A DNA stretch of 64,000 nucleotides. Origin: Pyrus communis (Eukaryota; Streptophyta; Magnoliopsida; Rosales; Rosaceae). The stretch lies in contig NC_084806.1 in NCBI RefSeq assembly GCF_963583255.1, forward strand, positions 16,534,317-16,598,316, read 5' to 3'. Shown in pieces: positions 24,420 to 64,000 of the stretch. Within the stretch, counting starts at the first letter, position 1. The number at the start of each line of letters is the position of its first letter. A model generated the notes under the pieces. The model was given only the letters and a program-made list of their open reading frames with translations, was not told the DNA's origin and searched no databases. A program made the position numbers and the translations under genes.

Positions 24420-24862
24420 TATTGATCCTAAAAATTACAAAGCCTACGTGGTGTGCAGGTCGAGTAACTAATGAGCTAACTACATCCTTCGGTTGATGCG
24501 GGGCGTGCCAACTCGTTGACCGAGCTCGACTGAGGAGTAAAATTTGTTGATGTTGTGTTGAGCACGTTGCTGACTTCTTGATCTTGAGATTAAGGCCGAG
24601 GAATGAACAAGTCTCGGCCTTTGGGTTCTCGAGCCTGAAGACAAGGCTGTTAGATCTGCAAAGTTCATGAATCATAGGTGCCGGATTCGATCACAGTGAT
24701 TATATTCGTAAGAGTATAAGCATGTTGAATCGACACCAGATTATATGGACACAAGTACTCAAAGAAAATGTATGTCTTAATGGTAAATGTGGTTCGGCCA
24801 TTAGAATGCCGAACTCTGAAACTCACTTGTGAGTATCCAATCATAAAATCACTCAACGTCCA
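24420..24862 (-). repeat. Truncated 3' LTR of the minus-strand gypsy element
   Basis: 443 bp aligning end to end with 28914-29356. It holds only the downstream part of the LTR; the first roughly 700 bp (U3 and the TATA region) are missing, and the sequence changes abruptly to the PMD gene leader at 24863. The element end TCAATA is followed by the target-site copy. Confidence 0.8.
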
Positions 24863-28913: not shown

Positions 28914-30054
28914 TATTGACCCCAAAAATTACAAAGTCTACATGGCGTGTAAGCCAAGTAACTAATGAGCTGACTACGTCATTCGGTTGATGCGGGACGT
29001 GCCAATTCGTCGACCAAGCTTGGCCGAGAAGTAAAATTTGTTGATGTTGCGTTGAACGTATTGCTGACTTCTTGATCTTGAGATTGCGGCCAAGGAAGGA
29101 ACAAGTCTCGGCCTTCAAGTTCTCGAGCCTGAAGACAAGGCTGCTAGTTCTGCGAAGTTCACGAATCATCGGCATTGGATTCGGTCACAGTGATTATATT
29201 CGCAAGAGTATAAGTATGTCGAATCGACACCAGATTTTATGGACACAAGTACTCAAATGAGATGTATGTCTTGATGGTAAATGTGGTTCGGCCGTCAGAA
29301 TGCCAAACTCGGAAACTCACTTGTGAGTATCCAATCATAAAATCACTCGGCGTTCAATGCACCAAATGTCGTAACTCGTAACACCTTACCTTGCCGAGAA
29401 GGCTAATAAGATGACCTCTACCAATAAGGATTCGAAAACCTTTCTCGACCAAGACTTAGATAGGTAACCAGTCGGCCTAGACACAGTGATGTTTATCCAA
29501 ATTGAAGGTGCTCCTCGGTCGGCTGATTCTACATCAACAATGTTGTTTATCCAACCTAAAGATGTTCGCCGGTTGCCTTCACAGTGCTATTTATCCAAAC
29601 TGAAGATGTGTTGGCGAAAAAAAAATAAAAAAAATCTCAAAATGTTTGAGAGGTTTATGCAGGGCAATTGTGTATTGAATTGGAGGGGGCTTGAATGATG
29701 CACTCTGCTATCTATTTATAGCAACAAACCCTCCTTACGATCAAGTTGAAACCACACTCGGATTAGGACTCCTTATTCTGATCTGACTCTATCTCGACCA
29801 ATCCTACTCTTATTAGGACTTTGAACTCACCCCCCCCCCTGTTCAGGCCGTATTCATTGCCGATCGAGAATCCATATTGCATTAGGACCCCTTATCGTAC
29901 TAGGACTTCGACCCATCACTCCTTCTTGCAACAGGACTCGACCACCTTCACTGAACGACCTAGGACCGCCAGGCAACCCATACTATACTTGGAAAAGCCT
30001 TGGGCCGAACATAAATCTACGCTCGGCCCAATAATATTATTTTGGGCCCAAACA
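28914..30054 (-). repeat. 5' LTR (1141 bp) of the minus-strand gypsy element
   Basis: It begins TGTTTGGGCCC on the minus strand and ends TCAATA. A TATA box (TATAAATAG, complement of 29712-29720) is followed by a plausible transcription start. Near its start a near-palindromic GGGCCC/TAATATTA/GGGCC stretch lies at 30025-30049. It shares its last 443 bp with 24420-24862. Confidence 0.75.
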
Positions 30055-42065: not shown

Positions 42066-45013
42066 CACACCATTGAACTTGATGGGATACGAATTCTCCG
42101 AAACTAATTTCAACGATCCCAACCGTCAAACTTGTTTGTATATGCTTCGTGATCACATCAGCAAAAAATTGCAAAAAACAAACATTCAGATATCAAGTAA
42201 CGGGACAAAGCTTTTCGACGGTTATAAACGAAAAATCATGATTTGACAGTTATTTTAACTTTGATTTTGATGATTTTTTACAGCTACACTCATTGACCCT
42301 ATATGAATACAATGAATGAATTTGATATTCAATTTAAAATATTTACACAAGTGGATACCACAAAATCTTATGTTATACTTGATGAAAGTATAAATAAACT
42401 CTAAGTGTTAGTCAATCTATTGTTTTTATGGGATACGAATTCTCCGAAACTAATTTCAACGATCCCAACCGTCAAACTTGTTTGTATATGCTTTGAGATC
42501 ACATCAGCAAAAAATCACAAAAAACAAACATTCAGAGATCAAGTAACGGGACAAAGCTTTTCGACGGTTATAAACGAAAAATCACGATTTAACGGTTATT
42601 TTAACTCCGATTTTGACGATTTTTTACAGCTACACTCCTTGACCCTATATGAATACAATGAATAAATTCGATCTTCAATTTAAAATATTTACACAAGTGA
42701 ATAGCACAAAATCTTATGTTATACTTAAAGAAAGTATAAATAAACTCTTAAGTGTTAGTCAATCTATCGTTTTGATGGGATACGAATTATCCGAAACTAA
42801 TTTCAACGATCCCAACCGTCAAACTTGTTTGTATATGCTTCAAGATCACATCAGCAAAAAATCACAAAAAACAAACATTCAGAGATCAAGTAACAAGATA
42901 AAGCTTTTCAACGGTTATAAACAAAAAATCACGATTTAACGGTTATTTTAACTCCGATTTTGGTGATTTTTTTACAACTACACTCATTGACCATATATGA
43001 ATACAATGAATGAATTTGATCTTCAATTTAAAATATTTACACTAGTGGGTACCACAAAATCTTATATTATACTTAATGAAAGTATAAATAAACTTCAAGT
43101 GTTAGTCAATCTATCGTTTTCATGGGATACAAATTCTTCGAAACTAATTTCAACCATCATAACTGTTAAACTTGTTTGTATATGCTTCGAGATCACATCA
43201 GCAAAAAATCACAAAAAACAAACATTCAGAGATCAAGTAAAGGGACAAAATTTTTTCACGGTTATAAACGAAAAATCACGATTTAACGGTTATTTTAACT
43301 CCGATTTTGATGATTTTTTACAGCTACAGTCTTTGACCCTATATGAATATAATGAATGAACTCGATCTTCAATTTAAAATATTTACACTAGTGGATACCA
43401 CAAAATCTTATATTATACTTAATGAAAGTATAAATAAAATCTAAGTGTTAGTGAATATATTGTTTTGATAGGATACGCATTCTATGAAACTAGCTTCAAC
43501 GATCCAACCATCAAACATGTTTGTATATGCTTCGAGATCGCATACGTCAAAATTTTCAAAAAACAAACATTCAGAGATCAAGTAACGGGCCAAAAATTTT
43601 CGACGGTTATCAACGAAAAATCATGATTTAACGGTTATTTTAACTCCGATTTTGATGATTTTTTACAACTACACTCCTTGACCCTATATGAATACAAAGA
43701 AAGAATTCAATCTTCAATTTAAAATATTTACACAAGTGGATACCACAAAATCTTATGTTATGTTTAATAAAGTATAAATAAACTCTAAGAGTTAATGAAT
43801 CTATTGTTTTGATAGGATACACATTCTACAAAACTAGTTTCAACAATCCAACCGTCAAACATGTTTGTATATGCTTCGAGATCGTATACGCCAAAAATTT
43901 CAAAAAACAAACATTCAAAGATCAAGTAACGGGACAAAACTTTTCGACGGTTATTAACGAAAAATCACGATTTAACGATTATTTTAATTCCGATTTTAAT
44001 GATTTTTTACAGCTACACTCATTGACCCTATATGAATATCATGAATGAGCTCGATCTTCAATTTAAAATATTTAAACTAGTGGATACCACAAAATCTTAT
44101 ATTATACTTAATGAAAGTATGAATAAATTTTTAAGTGTTAGTGAATTTATCATTTTAATGGGATACGCATTATACGAAACTAATTTCAACGATCCAACCG
44201 TTAAACATGTTTGTATATACTTCGAGATCACATAAACAAAAAATTGAAAAAAAACAAACATTCAGATATCAAGTAACGGAACAAAAGTTTTCGACGGTTA
44301 TCATTGAAAAATCATGATTTAACGGATATTTTAACTCCGATTTGATGATTTTTTACAGCCACACTCCTTGACTCTATGTGAATACAATGAATGAATTCGA
44401 TCTTCAATTTAAAATATTTACACTAGTGGATACTATAAAATCTTATGTTATACTTAATGAAAGTATAAATAAACTCTTAAGTGTTAGTGAATCTATCATT
44501 TTGATGAGATACGCATTCTACAAAATTAATTTCAACGATCCAACCGTCAAAGTTGTTTGTATATGCTTCAAGATCGTATACGCTAAAAATCGCAAAAAAG
44601 AAACATTCAGAGATCAAGTAAAGAGACAAAACCTTTCGACGGTTATCAATGAAAAATTACGATTTAATGGTTATTTTAACTCCGATTTTGATGATTTTTT
44701 TACAGCTACACTCCTTGACCCTATACAAATACAATGACTAAACTCGATCTTCAATTTAAAATATTTACACTAGTGGATAGCACAAAATCTTATGTTATGC
44801 TTAATGAAAGTATGAATAAATTCGTAAGTGTTAGTGAATCTATTGTTTTGATGGGATACGCATTCTATGAAACTAGTTTCAACGATCCAACCGTCAAACA
44901 TGTTTGTATATATTTTGAGATCACATACGCCAAAAATAGCAAAAACCAAACATTCAGAGATGAATTCGATCTTTAATTTAAAATATTTACACTATTGATA
45001 CCACGAAATCTTA
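42066..45013 (+). repeat. Tandem array of about 346-bp units (eight full plus a partial)
   Basis: The landmark GGGATAC (or its variant) occurs at 42084, 42430, 42777, 43124, 43470, 43814, 44160, 44506 and 44853, giving spacings of 346, 347, 347, 346, 344, 346, 346 and 347 bp. Adjacent units are highly similar. The last unit is shortened by an internal deletion near 44959, where CATTCAGAGAT joins directly to GAATTCGATC. Each unit has open frames of up to about 119 codons, but 346 is not a multiple of three, so the frame shifts from unit to unit. Confidence 0.95.
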
Positions 45014-53648: not shown

Positions 53649-54581
53649 TGTAGACATCAAAATTTCGGTGAAATGAATGTTGACCAATAATTAAAATTTC
53701 AGCGCTCACGTGTCACATAAATTTTACATGTAGCGTGTGACTCAACGAAAAATCGAAATAAATTGGAAAAGTCATCAAATAGGACACGTGTCAATACCTG
53801 GCAGAAATGATTTATTTCATCTGATTATTTAAATCCAAAAAATCAAGTTTTGGAATTCTATAAATAGGAAGCCAAGACATTCATTTGAAAAAAAAAAAAA
53901 GAGAGGAAGAAGAGAAAGGAAGAGAAAGAAAGAAAGAAGGAAATTTACATTACACCAAAACTTTGAAGCTTTGAAACTCTAAAGCTCTCAAGCAAATCTC
54001 GAAGGACCAAGAAAGCTATCTTCGTTCTTCGTCAAATCCTCCTTCAAGGTCAAGCCCCGACGACCCTTGAAGAACTTCCACCGATTCAAGATCAAGCCCC
54101 GACGGCCCTTGAAGAAAGTGTTCATCATCCGTTCATCCTAAAGATCAAGCCCCGACGGCCCTTGAAGAAAGTGTTCATCATCCGTTCATCCTAAAGATCA
54201 AGCCCCAACGGCCCTTTGGATCAACAACCTCAACAAATTCACACATCCAATCGTTCTTCAAGATTAAGCCCAAAAGCCCTTGAAGATCCGCTCATCCATC
54301 AACCTTCAAGATCAAGCCCAAAAGCCCTTGAAGAAATCCATACACCCAGTCTTCAAGATCAAGCCCAAAAGCCCTCGAAGATCCGTTCATCAACTGTTCG
54401 TCCCTAGATCAAGCCCCGACGGCCCTTTGGATCAACAGCTCATCCACAAACCTACACCATACGAAGATAGAATCAGAGGATCAAATTACAAAGAGATTGT
54501 AACCCCAAAATCATTAAACACAAAAATATATTTTGTACACGGTATTCTTGTTTCTTGTTTCAGGAATTTTTCGTGTTCACA
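53649..54581 (+). repeat. 5' LTR (933 bp) of the gene-carrying element
   Basis: Starts TGTAGACATC and ends TTCACA. It contains a TATA box (CTATAAATAG, 53858-53867). The downstream half is built of tandem copies of a phrase around AAGCCCCGACGGCCCTTGAAG and its variant CAAGCCCAAAAGCCCTTGAAG (about 54040-54430). Confidence 0.9.
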
Positions 54582-54585
54582 AACT

Positions 54586-54653: not shown

Positions 54654-57370
54654 ATGGCTTCAAACAAAGAACAAGTCATGACTATCGGCACTACCTCCAT
54701 TGAAAAACAGCTGGTTCAGATGAAGGAAACAATTGCAAGGCTGATAAAGACTGCAAGGAGAAAAACTTGCAAACCGCCGGACTCATCAACCGTTTGGAGA
54801 CGCAACATGGTGTCATAGTGAAACCAAGCTCTCTTCCAACTAAGAGGACCGAAGAAGGCTTCAACCCAAATGCCTACGAACTCATGTCAAAGGCTAGGCA
54901 TGACTTTGCTTCCTCTTCAAATCTTGGAAAGAAGGTTTCAAACACCGTCAACGACAAAGATCGCGACCTCACCGAGACTCAAAGGAAGTTGAAGGAGCAT
55001 GATTATGGAGTTGACAACAACAAAGCTGGACTTGGCTTCACACCAAATGCACCCGCGAAGATTTCAAGCAAAGTAAAGAAAGCTAGCGCTCAACACATCA
55101 ACGTGAGCATTGAACAAGACCAAGAAGAGCCTAAACCCTCCCCTCAGACGACGGTCTTCGATAAGATGAGCCATTCAAGCTCCAGAACTTCAGTGCTTAA
55201 TCGCATTGGTGGTCAAGACCGAACCTCTGTCTTCAAAAGGCTTACCGCGCCGACATCCCAAAGCTCTGTTTTTGAAAGGTTGTTAAACCCTAAGAAACAA
55301 AGCAACACAACTATCTCTCCTCTGCGACGATCAGCTTCAGAAAGATTTGAAGATAATGGTAAGCCTTTTGGAAAGAGGAAGACAACACCAAAGGAAGAAA
55401 AGCTCGATGGGTTAGGAGAAAAAGACGACGCTCGAAGCTCGATTCCTTCAAGGATGAAGCGCCAAGCAATCCTAGAGGTCGACACAAAAGGACCACTGAA
55501 GGTAAGGAGGCGCATCATCGTCCACACTGGCAAATCTTCATGCCAACAAACCCAAGAGAACGGCACTGAAGAGGAGATCCAAGATGTTTTCTACATCACG
55601 GTTCAAGAAGGTAAAGAAGACGAAAGCCCGAGGAAATACTCAGAGTCCCTACTCTCCGACGCTGAGTCGAGCGGCAGTACAACCATGCAAGTCATGACCA
55701 CTGGAGCAACTTCAATCGAGGAGCAGCTAGCTCAGATGAATGAAGTAATCGCAAAGCTCACACGGACTGTGGAAGAGAAGGACTTGCAGATTGCCGCACT
55801 TGTCAACCAACTAGATGCGCTGCCCGACGTGAAAGTCGACCCAAATGTTGGCCTATTAAAGAAAGAAGACGACGAAGAAGAGGAGCCACCAGCGGAGAAA
55901 GTTGAAGAGAAGCCGAAGCTAGACCAAGCAACGGCATTCATGGGATCTCTCTCTATCCAGCAGCTACAGGAGATGATCGCAAACACTATCAAGACATAGT
56001 ACGAAGGAAGCTCGCATGACTCCGTACTGTACTCAAAGCCTTACTCCAAGAAGATTGATGCTTTGAAGATGCCAAGGGGTTATCAGCCCCCAAAATTCAT
56101 GCAGTTCGATGGAAAAGGCAACCCGAAGCAACATGTCGCCCATTTCATTGAAACTTGCAACAATGCTGGGACAGAGGGAGACTACCTCGTCAAACAGTTC
56201 GTGCGTTCGCTGAAAAGTAACGCTTTTGACTGGTACACTGACCTCGAACCTGAGTCTATCAACAGTTGGGACCAGCTAGAAAGGGAATTCCTCAACCGTT
56301 TCTACAGCACTCGTCGTACTGTAAGCATGCTAGAGCTGACCAGTACGAAACAGTGGAGAGATGAACCTGTCGTCGACTACATAAATAGATGGCGTTCATT
56401 AAGCCTGGATTGCAAAGATCGGCTTTCTGAAACCTCCGCCATTGAGATGTGCGTTCAAGGCATGCAGTGGGGACTACACTACATCCTTCAAGGCATCAAA
56501 CCACGAACATTTGAGGAGTTAGCCACCCGCGCCCATGATATGGAGTTAAGCATCACCCGTCATGGGAAGAAAGAACAGATCGCTGACTACAAGAATGACA
56601 AAGTTTTAGGGCCAAAGGTGGATAAGGCTACGTGGAAACCCACCAAGGAAGCAATGACGGTCAACACAACTCCAGTCAAAATCCATACACGAAGCAAGGC
56701 GATTCAAACCGAAGCTTTTCGTGATCAAGAGATACGTAGACGCACTTTAAAGGAGCTTGAGAAGAAGACTTATCCATTCCCCGACTCTGACGTGGTTGCC
56801 ATGTTGAAAGACTTGCTTGACAAAAAGGTGATCGACCTACCTGAGTGCAAACGGCCAGAAGATATGAACCGTACTGACAGTCCAAGGTACTGTAAATTCC
56901 ACCACTTCATTAGTCATCCGACGGAAAAGTGCTTTGTGCTAAAAGATCTCATCATGAAGTTGGCTCAGAAAGGGATCATCGAGCTAGATCTTAATGATGT
57001 GGTGAAGTCAGACTATACCACCGTCACTTCTGGCTCTTTGAACTCAAAATCTTCACCTCAACCGCTGGGGGCATGCTCCAAAACCATGTCAGTCAAGTCA
57101 AGTGAAGTTGAAGGATGGACTTATGTCACTCCAAAGAAAATGCACAAGAAACATAGGTCTCCTCCACAAGTTCACCAATCGGAAAGGGGGCAAAGCAGCT
57201 ACCGTCAACCTTCAAAGCTACATGAAAGTGTTGAGGATGATGAAGTTATGACACAAAGATCGTCCGTTGCCATCACGATGCGCGATTTCTTCCCCAAAGA
57301 CTTCTTCAATCACTCAGTCAAGACTCCTTGCTATAAAGATTGCAAGGAATGCCTCTCTAAGATCGTTTGA
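54654..57370 (+). pseudogene. gag polyprotein of the gypsy element, broken by one frameshift and one in-frame TAG
   Basis: The ATG at 54654 opens a frame that loses one base near 54753. The protein then continues in a second frame to 57370, interrupted only by TAG at 55997-55999; the parts before and after that stop are in the same frame. Contents: N-terminal coiled coil (IEKQLVQMKETIARL), a charged disordered middle, a second coiled coil of the same type near 55730-55830 (IEEQLAQMNEVIAKL), the retrotransposon gag domain (about 56095-56540: [18 protein letters not shown] ... YTDLEP ... [10 protein letters not shown]), and a [14 protein letters not shown] zinc-knuckle-like motif near 56890. 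The first coiled coil is an imperfect duplicate of the second. Gag normally packages the RNA; this copy would give a truncated product at best. Confidence 0.88.
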
Positions 57371-57374
57371 CAAA

Positions 57375-57660
57375 TTCCAAAAGCTCCTCGTTCGCACGAG
57401 CCTAAAAGGTGACAACCAAAAGCTCCTTGTCTGCACGAGCTGAAACTGCAAACAGCACCAAACGCTCCTGGTCTGCACGAGCATAAAAGGCGACATCAAA
57501 AGCTCCTTGTCTGCATGAGCTGAAACTGCAAACGGCACCAAAAGCTCCTTGTCTGCACGAGTTGAAACTGCAAACGACACCACAAGCTCCTCGTTCGCAC
57601 GAGCCTAAAAGGTGATAACCAAACGCTCCTGGCCCGCAAGAGCATAAACTGTGTACGGCA
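57375..57660 (+). repeat. Seven tandem 38-42-bp units, each with a GCTC...GAGC hairpin
   Basis: Each unit carries a version of AGCTCCTTGTCTGCACGAGC, whose ends pair (GCTC/GAGC), followed by either CTAAAAGGTGACAACC or TGAAACTGCAAACGGCACC. The two unit types alternate irregularly. The array begins directly after the gag stop. Confidence 0.85.
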
Positions 57661-57945: not shown

Positions 57946-58363
57946 CATGTTAAAGTGGGTTTGCCTACACTTAAGACCCATGCCAACTCAAAGAAACAGA
58001 AGTTGAAGTCTACAAGAAGGAGCAACCCAAATGCCAGGCTCATCCCTTCTCAAACACACAATTGTTTTGAGCTTGCTATGCAAGGAGCTCTGCTTCTTCT
58101 CCCACCAGGCCCGGGCCCAGCTCTCAAAGCCCAAACTGCGCTTTTCCTATATGCACTGAAAAAACCTTAAGCTTTAAGCTCTTCTCTCTGATTTCTCACA
58201 ATTCAACTCGAAAAAATGGCGTTTCATCACCACCAGCAGCAGACCTCTCACTTTCAGTCGGAACAAAAATGGCCAATCCCAGTTCGCGCCACCAGTCCAC
58301 CCCACTTGCGGGTTGATCCGTTTGGTTCCCCGAGAAAATTAATAAGAAACGCTGGGCAACCGA
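57661..58363 (+). other. A/TA-rich spacer, then a leader segment before the captured genes
   Basis: 57800-57950 is A-rich with three (TA)n runs. From 57955 the sequence becomes GC-richer and resembles a transcript leader, with CTCTTCTCTCTGATTTCTC at 58171-58190 before an ATG at 58216. The short reading frame from 58216 runs in a different frame from the BES1-like domain. Its source is not recognised. Confidence 0.4.
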
Positions 58364-58665
58364 ATGATGACGTCGGGAACGAGAATGCCGACGTGGAAGG
58401 AGAGAGAGAACAACAAGAAACGGGAGCGGCGGCGCCGGGCAATCGCCGCGAAGATCTATTCCGGGCTGTGGATGTACGGAGCTCCCGAAGCACTGCGACA
58501 ACAACGAGGTCCTCAAAGCTCTTTGCAACGAAGCCGGCTGGACAGTCGAAGAAGACGGTACCACTTACCGAAAGGGATGCAAACCCGTGGATCGCATGGA
58601 CATAATGGGGGGTTCTACCTCAGCAAGTCCATGTTCATCGTACCAGCCATCCCCGTCAACGGTGC
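58364..58665 (+). pseudogene. Captured N-terminal domain of a BES1/BZR1-family transcription factor
   Basis: From the ATG at 58367 (58364 is the adjacent ATG) the frame reads [18 protein letters not shown], then [16 protein letters not shown], the DNA-binding start of BES1/BZR1 homologues (BEH2-4 type). Near 58480 about seven bases are lost, and the match resumes in another frame with [20 protein letters not shown], then [16 protein letters not shown] and [14 protein letters not shown], where it stops abruptly. From memory, host BES1/BZR1 genes have an intron near the TYRKG codons; here that site is uninterrupted, suggesting an RNA-derived copy. Family members regulate brassinosteroid-responsive genes. 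This copy lacks the rest of the protein and is frameshifted. Confidence 0.85.
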
Positions 58666-59089
58666 CGTTTCAGAGACCCCCCTCCAGATTCAAAGACATC
58701 AACAAGAACCACGTCAGATTGGATCTGAACTCCATGGTGTCAACGCTTGTCAGTGATCTGGGCTCTGTCGACATCAATCTCAAAAAGCAGCGATCTGGTC
58801 TACTCAAGAAGCACAGAGATTCACAGTATCGATTAGTGGAGCTTCAGCTTGTCGTCCGATTCCCCTGCTTCACCATGACTGGTACTCCGCCGTCTCTGTT
58901 CACCATGGTTTTCCTGTGCAGGGGGAGTTGGGTGTCTTGAGAAGTTCTCCTCGATCTCATCCTAAGTCGCCGTCTCACTACCTTCGTTGTAGCCAACTGA
59001 AAGGACCGGCGAGATTCCGGGATGTGTCGCACCTCCATCGCCAAATCCATCATCAAATTTGCTAAAACACCCAGATTTCAACTCGGTGA
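58666..59089 (+). other. Captured segment of unknown origin
   Basis: GC content and open frames resemble coding DNA (for example a frame with [20 protein letters not shown]), but I recognise no family. It lies between the BES1-like and aldo/keto reductase-like pieces, so it may be a further host transcript fragment or the leader and transit-peptide region of the reductase. Confidence 0.4.
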
Positions 59090-59974
59090 GAGCCACCCAG
59101 GCGCCGAGCCAACTCGGTCAGGTGCGGCAAGGCAACTCAGGTCAGCGGCGAGACCCACCGAGTCACGGAGAAGAACGGGAACGATTCTCTGGACATATGC
59201 CGAGTACTGAACGGAATGTGGCAGACGAGTGGTGGCTGGGACAGAATCGACCGAGACGACGCCGTCGAGGCCATGCTCCGCTACGCAGACGCTGGCCTCT
59301 CCACCTTCGACATGGCAGACCACTATGGACCGGCTGAAGATCTATATGGCATCTTTATCAATCGAGTTCGTCAGGAGCGTCCACCAGAGTACTTGGAAAA
59401 GGTCAGAGGTCTTACGAAATGGGTGCCACCGCCTGTTAAGATGACAAGTAGTTTTGTAAGGGACAGTGTTAATGTTTCACGAAAGAGAATGGACGTGGCT
59501 TCCTTGGACATGCTTCAGTTTCATTGGTGGGATTATGCAAATACTGGTTACCTTGATGCACTAAAACACCTTACAGATTTGAAAGAAGGTAAAATTAAGA
59601 CAGTCGCCTTGACAAATTTCGATACAGAGAGGCTACAGATAATCCTAGAAAATGAGATTCCTGTTGTAAGCAATCAGGTCCAGCATTCCATTGTTGATAT
59701 GCGTTCTCAACAGAAAATGGCAGAGCTTTGTCAGCTCACAGGAGTCAAACTTATAACGTATGGGACAGTAATGGGCGGTCTATTATCTGAAAAGTTCCTC
59801 GATACCAACTTGAACATTCCTTTTGCCGGGCCTCCATTAAACACTCCCTCCCTCCAAAAGTACAAACGAATGGTTGATGCCTGGGGAGGTTGGAGTCTTT
59901 TCCAAGCTCTTCTTCAGACACTTAAAGGCATTGCTACTAAACACGGAGTCTCCATAGCTACACGTTGCAGATGA
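59090..59974 (+). pseudogene. Captured, C-terminally truncated aldo/keto reductase (chloroplast type)
   Basis: An uninterrupted frame contains DSLDICRVLNGMWQTSGGW (about 59182-59238), FDMADHYGPAEDLYG with the catalytic Tyr, VRGLTKWVPPP around the Lys region, LDMLQFHWW with the active-site His, and VALTNFD. This is the plant NAD(P)-linked oxidoreductase type of aldo/keto reductase. The frame breaks at VSIATRCR (59974), where VSIPTVAVKYIL would be expected, so roughly the last 80-100 residues with the cofactor phosphate site are missing. No introns interrupt about 800 bp. The match begins with a probable transit-peptide end upstream. Because the long frame is intact, transcription from the LTR could give a truncated protein, but it is unlikely to be an active enzyme. 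Confidence 0.85.
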
Positions 59975-60560
59975 GAGAGATTCTCTTCTTCGAAGATTTG
60001 CAGGGGATTTTAAGCAGGGTGCAGAAGGAGATGCAAGCTTCGTTCGTCTGGCTATTTCAACAGGTTTTCTCTCGGACTAAAGGCTCCGACTTTGGGAGTT
60101 GCAAAGGAAGCTGGGCGTGGCTTGGGAGTCCGAGAGGTCACTCCTCCTTCGATCATCGACCTCCTCACGGCTGTGCTCCATCTTCAGCTCTCCAAACTCC
60201 ATAGCCGCAGCAACAACATCCACTAACTACCTCAAGCTCCTCACTCTGGCCACCGTGGTCAAAATCGGCGAAGAACTTCAGTGACCGCTGTCAAACGACT
60301 AGCCGATCGCGAAGCTCGACGCTTCGCACTACTTCAAGATCTGGCTGCTTCTGCACCTCCGCCATGGCTGCTGCCTTTGAATGTGATCAACAAAATCAAA
60401 GTTTGTCAACTCACACCCAAAGATCTCATCCGTCTTCTTGCCTCTGCTGCTGCCTTTGAATGTGATTAACAAAATCAAAGTTTGTCAACTCACATCCAAA
60501 GATCTCCTCCGTCTTCTCTCGGACTCGGCCTGGGTTTTCACCCACAAACTCAGCCTTGCA
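59975..60560 (+). other. Further captured segments, one resembling a plant TPR-type protein
   Basis: Directly after the reductase break the frame reads FFEDLQGILSRVQKEMQASF then VWLFQQVF, which I weakly associate with a plant tetratricopeptide-type protein. It breaks at about 60077, and a GC-rich segment with a frame GVAKEAGRGLGVREVTPPS follows; I do not recognise it. Two tandem copies of a phrase around GCTGCCTTTGAATGTGAT (60370 and 60447, about 78-bp period) close the block. Confidence 0.45.
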
Positions 60561-61051: not shown

Positions 61052-61633
61052 TTACTTGGGAAAAACTACAGAAGCGGGAGGCATCAAAGAAGAGGCCTCA
61101 ATACTTGGTGGAACGCTAGATGAGCCAGGAAAAATATGCCTCTGGAAGAAAGCCGCAAGCCTTTGACGGTCACTTTGCGTTCGACCATTGGATTCTTGCA
61201 GCTCATCAAGCTTCCTCTTCATGCCCGACGAATAGTTATTTGCAAGCACATGCAAACTTCTATTCTCGTACTTAAGCAGTTTGATCTCTTGCTTAAGACT
61301 TTCCACCTCCGCCATCAAGGATTCAACTTGGCGGGAGCGAACAAGTAGGCGTTGGCCCATGTTGGACACAGAGCCTGCACACTGAACACTGAGAGCGAGG
61401 GACTCTTGAACGGCCAACTCATCAGACCGTCCTGAAAGCAGCCGACTATCTTCAGGAGTGAGGAGGTTCCTAGCTACTATCGTAGCTGTTGTTGCGTCCT
61501 TCATCACAGAGTCTTCACCTGTAAGAGGACCGTTAGAAGATAAAAAAGAAGGGCGCCATACATTACCTTGACGGGGCACAACCGGATCGCTGCTGAGACT
61601 CAAATCTAAGCAAAGGTTCGATGAGTTAGTCAT
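61052..61633 (-). CDS. Antisense coiled-coil ORF of the Tat-like element (193 aa)
   Basis: An intact minus-strand frame of 193 residues lies opposite to gag between the captured block and the 3' LTR. It starts MTNSSNLCLDLSLSSDP. The middle (about 100-150) is a strong coiled coil (VESLMAEVESLKQEIKLLKYE), followed by NYSSGMKRKLDELQESNG and a short tail. Tat-lineage elements often carry such an antisense ORF before the 3' LTR; its function is unknown. It would need a promoter firing leftwards, perhaps in the 3' LTR region. It is the only undamaged long ORF of the element. Composition is less AT-rich than the flanks. Confidence 0.7.
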   Translation of the reverse strand: MTNSSNLCLDLSLSSDPVVPRQGNVWRPSFLSSNGPLTGEDSVMKDATTATIVARNLLTPEDSRLLSGRSDELAVQESLALSVQCAGSVSNMGQRLLVRSRQVESLMAEVESLKQEIKLLKYENRSLHVLANNYSSGMKRKLDELQESNGRTQSDRQRLAAFFQRHIFPGSSSVPPSIEASSLMPPASVVFPK

Positions 61634-61700
61634 TTTTCAAAGGTGTTCAAAGAGAAGGGATGGAGTAAAATTTCAAAGGGTCGGAGACAATTTTTCAAGA

Positions 61701-63390
61701 ATGGGCAATCTTCAGAGTGTGAATGTTGGGGTGATCAATACCGCTATAAAAAGCCAAGGCGACACGACCACCGATTCAAAAATCCAGATTTTCCTGCGTG
61801 AAGTTCGGCGACGCGTTCGCGGCTTTTCAGAAAACGCGTTCAACTTTGTCAAAAGATATCTGACAAAGTCGAAAACACGTGGAGGCCATCATCGCAACTA
61901 CACGTCTTTAGCCGACAAGCGCAAAGTTCGGCAACGCTTTCTCTGCTTTTCAGAAAACGCGTGCAACTTTGTCAAAAGTGGCGCTCGTTCAGAAATCGAA
62001 GAGGCGTCGTTCAGAAATCGAAGAGGCGTCGTTCAGATATCGAAGAGACGTTTGTCGACAAGGGTAAAAGAACAGTACCACCACTTGCTATTGAGAAATC
62101 CCTATACATGTCGACCTTCATCTCTTATGGCAAGGCAGACCTGAAGAAAATGCCCAACTCTTCCTCACCTCTGAGGGCGCACTCCCAGCAAAGCCTCTTG
62201 AAATACTCAATTTTTTCTCCCCCAGAGAAGATACCAGATACCTGGAGTACAGATGACCCAGGAGGAAACGGTAGATCAAAGCATGTGGAGACAACCACAA
62301 CAAATACATGTGCTGATTCAGTCGTCGTTTCTTCAAAAGCAAAGGTATCTCATATCATCAAGGGCGAAAACAAAGGTATCTCATATCATGCTTTTTCCCT
62401 GTCTTTTCCTTTGCCCTTGTTCTTACCTGCAGGACAAGGGGAAAGTGAGTAATCAGTCGGAACCTGAAATCAAACTTCTGACCTGGAATTGATTGCCTGG
62501 ATCCTTTGCCTGGTTGCTTACCTTGCATTGCTCTCGAGTACTCATCGTCACCGAGCAGTAATGTTCTGAAGCACCATTTAAATGCAAAGGTTGCATTCAA
62601 CTCCTGCATCAGAGGACAAATACTACAAGAGAAGATGCTAAACCTGCATAAGGAAATACCACCTATGCAAAGGGAGCAAGTAAGGCAAGTGAAAATGATA
62701 CATCGAAGCATGTGGAGACAAGCACAACAAATATATGTGCTGATTCATTCGATGCTTCTTCGAAAGCAAAGGTATCTCATATCATGCTTTTTCCCTGTCT
62801 TTTCCTTTGTCTTTGTTATTACTCGCATGGCAAAGTGAAAGAGAGCAGTCAGCGGCACTTGGAGTCAGTCTTCCGATCTGGAACCGACTACCTGGAATCT
62901 ATTCCTGATTGCTTACCTAGTATTGCTCTCGAGTAGTCATCTTCAACGATTGATACACTGCCAGAGAAGAGACAAGGAAACTTCAATCTTTCCGATTCGT
63001 ATTCAATACGAATTGGAAAGATTGAACAAAGAAACAGGTCAGCACCTCCACCTCGTACTTGCCTGCCATATCCTGAAACCGCTCGTAGACCTTCGGGGGG
63101 AGACCAAAAGAATCCTGCTGCTCAGTTCAAGAGTAGCACAAAGGAAAATCAACGAGTGGAGGAGACCAAAAGAATCTTCCAGCCCAGTTCAAGATTAAGC
63201 TTGTGGAAAATCAACGATTGGAGGAAACCAGAAAATCTTCCAGTCGAACTCAAGATCAAACCTCGATGGCCCTTGAAGAAATTTCCAGCCCAATTCAAGA
63301 TCAAGCCCCGACGGCCCTTGGGTTGACATCTACATTAAGGAACTTCAAAACGCATCTCCTACACGTGACAAGCACATGTCTACGACGCGC
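61701..63390 (+). repeat. Non-coding 3' region of the element with nested duplications
   Basis: Visible duplications: AGTTCGGCGACGC (61802) and AGTTCGGCAACGC (61925) begin copies 123 bp apart; a 22-bp unit GTTCAGAAATCGAAGAGGCG is repeated three times at 61986-62050; a block of about 290 bp from CATGTGGAGACAACCAC (62281) recurs from 62708 (about 427 bp apart); and GGAGACCAAAAGAATC recurs at 63097 and 63162. No conserved protein is seen. Confidence 0.7.
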
Positions 63391-63407: not shown

Positions 63408-64000
63408 TGTAGACATCAAAATTTCGGTGAAATGAATGTTGACCAATAATTAAAATTTCAGCGCTCACGTGTCACATAAATTTTACATGTAGCGTGTGAC
63501 TCAACGAAAAATCGAAATAAATTGGAAAAGTCATCAAATAGGACACGTGTCAATACCTGGCAGAAATGATTTATTTCATCTGATTATTTAAATCCAAAAA
63601 ATCAAGTTTTGGAATTCTATAAATAGGAAGCCAAGACATTCATTTGAAAAAAAAAAAAAGGAGAGGAAGAAGAGAAAGGAAGAGAAAGAAAGAAAGAAGG
63701 AAATTTACATTACACCAAAACTTTGAAGCTTTGAAACTCTAAAGCTCTCAAGCAAATCTCGAAGGACCAAGAAAGCTATCTTCGTTCTTCGTCAAATCCT
63801 CCTTCAAGGTCAAGCCCCGACGGCCCTTGAAGAACTTCCACCGATTCAAGATCAAGCCCCGACGGCCCTTGAAGAAAGTGTTCATCATCCGTTCATCCTA
63901 AAGATCAAGCCCCGACGGCCCTTGAAGAACTTCCACCGATTCAAGATCAAGCCCCGACGGCCCTTGAAGAAAGTGTTCATCATTCGTTCATCCTAAAGAT
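63408..64000 (+). repeat. 3' LTR of the gene-carrying element (first 593 bp; cut by window end)
   Basis: Nearly identical to 53649 onwards, including the TATA box (CTATAAATAG, 63617-63626). One extra G after the A-run near 63661 and one A/G change are the only differences in the first roughly 500 bp. Beyond that the tandem AAGCCCCGACGG modules follow in a different order from the 5' LTR. Confidence 0.95.

Follow-up and report, generated by a model that had tools for sequence, protein, structure and literature searches.

Fragments of unrelated host genes in place of pol in a young pear LTR retrotransposon: probable capture by template switching

Long terminal repeat (LTR) retrotransposons that have LTRs and gag and lack pol form the non-autonomous TR-GAG class. 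Fusions of several unrelated host genes within one LTR element have rarely been documented, and maize Bs1 is the standard case. According to a recent review, Bs1 contains fragments of plasma-membrane H+-ATPase, xylan endohydrolase and beta-1,3-glucanase genes, none of which is full length (PMC13317346). Host gene sequence is reported from intact LTR elements of rice (672) and sorghum (1343) (PMC3726574), and such captures mostly share the orientation of gag-pol (PMC7264820). A maize survey describes 425 gene-carrying LTR elements; under its conditions, none combined two or more standard nuclear genes (PMC2774510). In elements of the Retand/Tat lineage, antisense open reading frames (ORFs) lie between pol and the 3' LTR, and antisense TRP28 is reported in 97% of Retand clusters (PMC11963269). 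Here we analyze a 64,000-nucleotide stretch of the pear Pyrus communis (contig NC_084806.1, positions 16,534,317 to 16,598,316; hereafter, the window), in which an LTR element without detected pol carries pieces of several host genes between gag and an antisense ORF.

On its sequence, the pear element is a dicot parallel of Bs1 and a further example of a rare known type. Like Bs1, it is a single LTR element with fragments of three unrelated host genes, and in pear a fourth is probable. It differs from Bs1 in its donors (BES1/BZR1, aldo/keto reductase, TPR and probably a legume-lectin gene), in its downstream antisense ORF, in a chimeric frame that a frameshift and a stop codon interrupt, and in that another gene is found near the equivalent join in a related pear gene model (P0241, see below). 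No element of the maize survey holds fragments of more than one standard nuclear gene, whereas the pear element holds multiple unrelated ones. The initial annotation of this locus called such a chain unusual, which is fair in view of the maize survey, although Bs1 is a direct precedent. With TR-GAG elements it shares LTRs, gag and the lack of detected pol, but its gag is broken and host gene pieces fill the place of pol. An antisense ORF and tandem repeats in an extended 3' internal region are reminiscent of Retand/Tat elements; unlike theirs, the antisense ORF has no TRP28 match, and the element has no detected reverse transcriptase by which to place it. As in other LTR-captured genes, the pieces follow the gag sense direction. 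A literature search returned no description of this element, and the strings "captur", "transduc" and "gene fragment" are all absent from the text of a pear LTR survey (PMC4668562).

We consider it likely that the pieces are a captured chain, generated by template switching onto spliced host mRNAs in a young, pol-less element. The block and its annotation consist of the following features.

57955 to 58363 (+): stretch before the BES1 start codon, directly adjoining the BES1 piece; donor not found
58364 to 58655 (+): fragment of a BES1/BZR1 homolog 4-like gene covering residues 1-100, with a frameshift near 58481
58605 to 59971 (+): NCBI Pyrus communis gene model P0124, 58605-58907 plus 59093-59971, with a GT-AG gap at 58908-59092
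58656 to 59065 (+): segment between the BES1 and reductase pieces, containing the probable lectin piece; no donor found for the rest
58686 to 58793 (+): probable legume-lectin-domain fragment, in the same frame as the upstream BES1 piece
59066 to 59959 (+): aldo/keto reductase fragment, with a stop codon at 59087 and the C-terminus absent
59950 to 59959 (+): microhomology-type join, 10 nt that fit both the reductase and the TPR alignments
59960 to 60078 (+): TPR-protein fragment, an internal piece whose alignment itself spans 59944-60078
60079 to 60560 (+): tail, no donor found, holding a 79-nt tandem duplication

Three unrelated host donors (BES1/BZR1, aldo/keto reductase and TPR) are recognizable by homology inside the one LTR pair. 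The order of the pieces, their orientation in the sense direction of the element, and their placement between gag and the antisense ORF, all as initially described, were borne out by Pfam and protein alignments. The BES1/BZR1-family N-terminus was recovered by Pfam BES1_N in two overlapping frames (E = 6.9e-29 and 9.4e-15) and by a PDB match to BZR1. Residues 1-100 of the pear BES1/BZR1 homolog 4-like protein (P0015) align to it across a single frameshifting deletion, which is an addition to the initial description. All of the best 120 of the 1014 proteins matched in a search with this piece contain the BES1_N domain. The aldo/keto reductase, correctly described as lacking its C-terminus, matches its Pfam family with E = 4e-56, and residues 40-338 of the 408-residue Malus protein P0133 (299 residues) align to the full fragment at 97.3% with one residue missing. 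The best of 6846 protein matches are plant proteins, many of them labelled "flagellar radial spoke protein 5"; one relative is labelled "like AT2G27680" and another At1g06690. The third piece, previously regarded as possibly TPR-like, matches residues 241-285 (45 residues) of the pear TPR protein LOC103960770 (P0242) at 95.6%, and its relatives include At1g07280 and one protein "like AT2G29670". A composite query of seven reading frames retrieved 99 proteins led by P0124 and P0241; nine of the other 97 were mapped, and all nine match the TPR stretch 59944-60078. The idea of multi-gene capture by one pol-less LTR element is supported: three of the donors are identified, and there is probably a fourth.

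The case for an RNA origin of the captured block depends on the reductase piece. Between FDMADH and YGPAED, 29 of the 119 other reductase proteins compared (the best-scoring of the 6846) have 40-114 inserted residues, and the window DNA passes this position without interruption. In Malus and Prunus models the insertion resembles the first exon of a neighboring paralogue; hence, this position should be an exon border. The absence of an intron at this one likely position is supported indirectly, by way of protein models. A Brassica model (P0154), which by eye duplicates a block starting with MVDAWGG, suggests a second exon border that the reductase piece would also cross. Protein models of the BES1 and TPR donors gave no clear exon border. 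The initial annotation described all of the fragments as intronless; this holds, indirectly, for the reductase piece and is not shown for the other pieces. The insertion recurs at the same border in P0121, P0122, P0123 and 26 other listed reductase models; the Malus and Prunus ones apparently represent tandem neighbors read as one gene.

The reductase and TPR pieces meet in shared sequence: the reductase alignment stops at 59959 and the TPR alignment is correct from 59950, and when blunt joins of coding sequence were simulated 20,000 times, 2 had an overlap of at least 10 nt. No run of eight or more A residues is present within 57961-60560. Both the BES1 and the reductase pieces keep N-terminal parts and have lost their C-terminal (3') parts. 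Retrocopies of the long interspersed nuclear element (LINE) type are usually truncated at the 5' end with the 3' end kept, so that the reverse pattern seen here counts for template switching. Template switching, initially offered as a plausible cause, is supported by the absent intron position, the 10-nt shared join, the lack of an A-run and the 3'-truncated pieces, and is not proven.

In such a process, host mRNAs would enter the particles of a helper element together with element RNA. Reverse transcriptase, starting from the 3' end of the element RNA, would jump at short matches between successive host mRNAs and then back to element RNA, presumably during minus-strand synthesis. The expected outcome would be gene pieces on the sense strand that are free of introns, truncated at the 3' end and located between gag and the antisense ORF. 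Several captures may have occurred in succession, and the rearranged element would then have been replicated by helper functions in trans before its recent insertion.

Could the cargo have been joined at the DNA level, for example by a DNA transposon (Helitron, Pack-MULE or CACTA) that already held gene fragments and inserted into a pol-less element? Gene-fragment capture is more frequent among other DNA elements, with 1194 Helitron captures reported in maize (PMC2774510), and the AT-rich simple repeats that flank the block could hide DNA-transposon termini. However, a reductase piece that crosses a conserved exon border without an intron is unexpected for capture of genomic DNA, and the common sense direction of all recognizable pieces also argues against this origin, which we regard as rather unlikely. 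A further point against it is that simple AT repeats were all that framed the block among the 25 longest of 222 inverted-repeat pairs, a comparison that was not a systematic search for Helitron ends. The processed look of the reductase piece would equally suit several independent LINE-made processed pseudogenes that landed successively inside the element. This is highly improbable, given the lack of A-runs, the missing 3' ends of the BES1 and reductase pieces and the direct joining of the reductase and TPR pieces via shared sequence. Read-through transduction, in which element RNA extends into neighboring genes, is spliced and is then copied, would take up pieces at their genomic places and would also yield spliced sense sequence; the Bs1 captures are called transductions in a recent review (PMC13317346). 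For the pear element it is quite improbable, since the pieces lie between gag and the antisense ORF rather than beside an LTR, at least three unrelated donors would be needed next to the element at different times, and the reductase/TPR join falls within both coding regions and has shared sequence. That the arrangement is an assembly artefact is barely credible. The exact arrangement was observed a single time, and false joins could arise from a collapsed repeat, but a different pear record, P0241, has the same TPR/tail join. P0124, on a 29.97-Mb contig, is also 100% identical across the BES1/middle segment and the reductase, a weak point as it may derive from the same assembly.

Several observations weigh against template switching onto spliced mRNAs. 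The DNA read covers this one copy and ends before the target-site duplication. The 119 reductase proteins are the best-scoring of 6846, among which fused models rank high, and one of the 119 is P0124 itself. The intron loss and the microhomology derive from protein alignments and window DNA, concern one gene and one join, and were selected post hoc. The TPR piece comes from the interior of its mRNA and represents neither end. The reductase homology begins about 20 residues into Malus protein P0125. A back-translated reductase N-terminus was undetectable upstream of 59066 (equal scores came from 93 of 200 shuffles and from 44 of 200 random positions), so that a retained 5' end is only approximate for this piece.

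The element around the block has the following features.

53649 to 54584 (+): 5' LTR, starting TGTAGACATC; the end is approximate and was set just before the primer-binding-site-like sequence
54585 (+): primer-binding-site-like sequence TTGGCACGCCCAGTGGGAC, read by eye
54704 to 57370 (+): gag region, two same-frame ORFs with a TAG at 55997-55999 between them and an apparent frame change near 54740
57377 to 57604 (+): minisatellite of 42/80-nt units, between gag and the captured block
61052 to 61636 (-): 194-aa antisense ORF, downstream of the captured block and ahead of the 3' LTR
63408 to 64000 (+): 3' LTR, cut off by the window end; a purine-rich, polypurine-tract-like sequence GAAGTGGGGGCATT, read by eye, lies directly before it

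The paired LTRs begin with TG and have primer-binding-site-like and polypurine-tract-like sequences at their inner edges, as in LTR retrotransposons. Their comparable part is nearly identical (522 columns with 520 identities, one mismatch and one gap). The remainder carries a variable minisatellite, and the 3' LTR runs out of the window; its end and the target-site duplication fall beyond it. At the substitution rate of 1.3e-8 used for pear (PMC4668562), one LTR substitution would make the insertion less than about 0.1 million years old, an estimate whose error is very wide. This date refers to the insertion and not to the gene captures.

The gag ORF matches Pfam Retrotrans_gag above its cut-off (E = 2.7e-14) and Ty3_capsid under its own cut-off (E = 1.1e-4); a gypsy-type gag of this kind would assign the element to the Ty3/gypsy superfamily. 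In this copy gag is broken by the in-frame TAG and the apparent frame change. A coiled-coil-like motif of the gag N-terminus is, from translations, apparently present twice (54680-54790, TTSIEKQLVQMKE, and 55690-55810, TSIEEQLAQMNE). Pfam scans covered the longer window ORFs in partly overlapping sets of 10, 10, 8 and 8, with short ORFs outside the scan, and gave no reverse transcriptase, RNase H, integrase or protease above curated cut-offs. The nearest pol-type match was a sub-threshold Peptidase_A17 inside the gag ORF (E = 0.098; 13.1 bits versus a cut-off of 22.3). The initial description of the element as pol-less agrees with this result, and gag itself is now seen to be damaged. With LTRs and gag and without detected pol, the element is classed by sequence as a non-autonomous Ty3/gypsy-type LTR retrotransposon of the TR-GAG kind. 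The antisense ORF has no family above the Pfam cut-offs, none at E 0.01 in NCBIfam, and no match to TRP28 (PF04195) in Pfam at E 0.1. The initial annotation called the element Tat-like, and gag may have a Tat-like look; the Tat/Retand label is neither established nor contradicted. In the 3' internal region, 62266-62554 and 62693-62949 form an imperfect direct duplication (73%).

The existing gene model P0124 (394 aa) is 100% identical to the locus. It joins the final 17 BES1 residues to the middle segment and the truncated reductase. Since the model and the window possibly share one assembly, this identity is not an independent confirmation. This NCBI model, named "flagellar radial spoke protein 5-like", is a transposon-borne chimera rather than an ordinary gene.

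The middle segment was initially described as unknown but coding-like. A weak legume-lectin match can now be added for part of it, and the rest is still without a donor found. Lectin_legB matches 58686-58793 with E = 0.001 in a longer ORF and E = 0.00025 alone (21.1 bits, below the cut-off of 26.3), so that a legume-lectin domain is probably the fourth host piece. Read in the BES1 frame, the segment had no match in the PDB; a joined lectin query gave weak matches only, first sorbitol dehydrogenase (E = 0.042) and then a lectin (E = 0.68). The composite search returned only P0124, its own locus, across the segment and no lectin among the named matches, in a size range of about 207-658 aa that omits many long receptor kinases. 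The translation of 58810-58866 (STEIHSID, stop, WSFS), in the next frame of the segment, may resemble L-type lectin receptor kinases, and Pfam gave nothing there. The lectin piece adds one donor and leaves the proposed mechanism unaltered.

Upstream, 57955-58363 could be either a BES1 5' leader or a separate capture; its frame from 58216 has no Pfam family and no relative in the composite protein search. Downstream, the tail (60079-60560) has no donor in the composite search and no match in the PDB or Pfam. Its 79-nt tandem duplication spans 60367-60517 (95% matches) and repeats the frame that reads LLPLNVINKIKVCQL.

Elsewhere in the window, 42079-44964 is a satellite-like tandem array of roughly eight units of about 346 nt, with self-matches that are 86-89% identical. 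Two direct copies of about 443 nt (24420-24862 and 28914-29356), 87% identical and 4.5 kb apart, are possibly the LTR pair of another element.

A second arrangement involving the tail is seen in P0241, a 208-residue model from Pyrus ussuriensis x P. communis that is annotated as DAHP synthase 1. Residues 2-138 are a class-II DAHP-synthase fragment (Pfam E = 1.5e-61, with PDB and TIGR01358 matches), followed by 58 residues that match 60014-60187 at 94.8%, partly through the TPR piece in another frame. P0241 may represent either a sister element with a DAHP-synthase piece in the place of the reductase, or a tail-bearing element in or beside a DAHP-synthase gene that was merged with it by the gene model. 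The residues before the shared tail were compared with the start of the TPR piece in the window. The best position (59968-59988) is suggestive, but an equally good fit arose in 33 of 500 shuffles and at 34 of 500 random positions, and this comparison is not evidence. A literature search found nothing on point linking DAHP synthase and retrotransposons. The joining of a DAHP-synthase fragment to the same tail hints at repeated capture. We tentatively propose, as a reading somewhat less likely than not, a pear family of pol-less LTR elements that repeatedly captures host mRNAs at a shared junction, with a common TPR/tail module joined to a reductase or a DAHP-synthase piece and jumps that swap the 5'-ward cassette.

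A young pear element with near-identical LTRs and identifiable donors would allow the junctions, the donor introns and the order of capture to be read with little decay. If serial capture is true, successive jumps would build different multi-gene chimeras from one scaffold, which would make this element a new variant among gene-capturing LTR elements.

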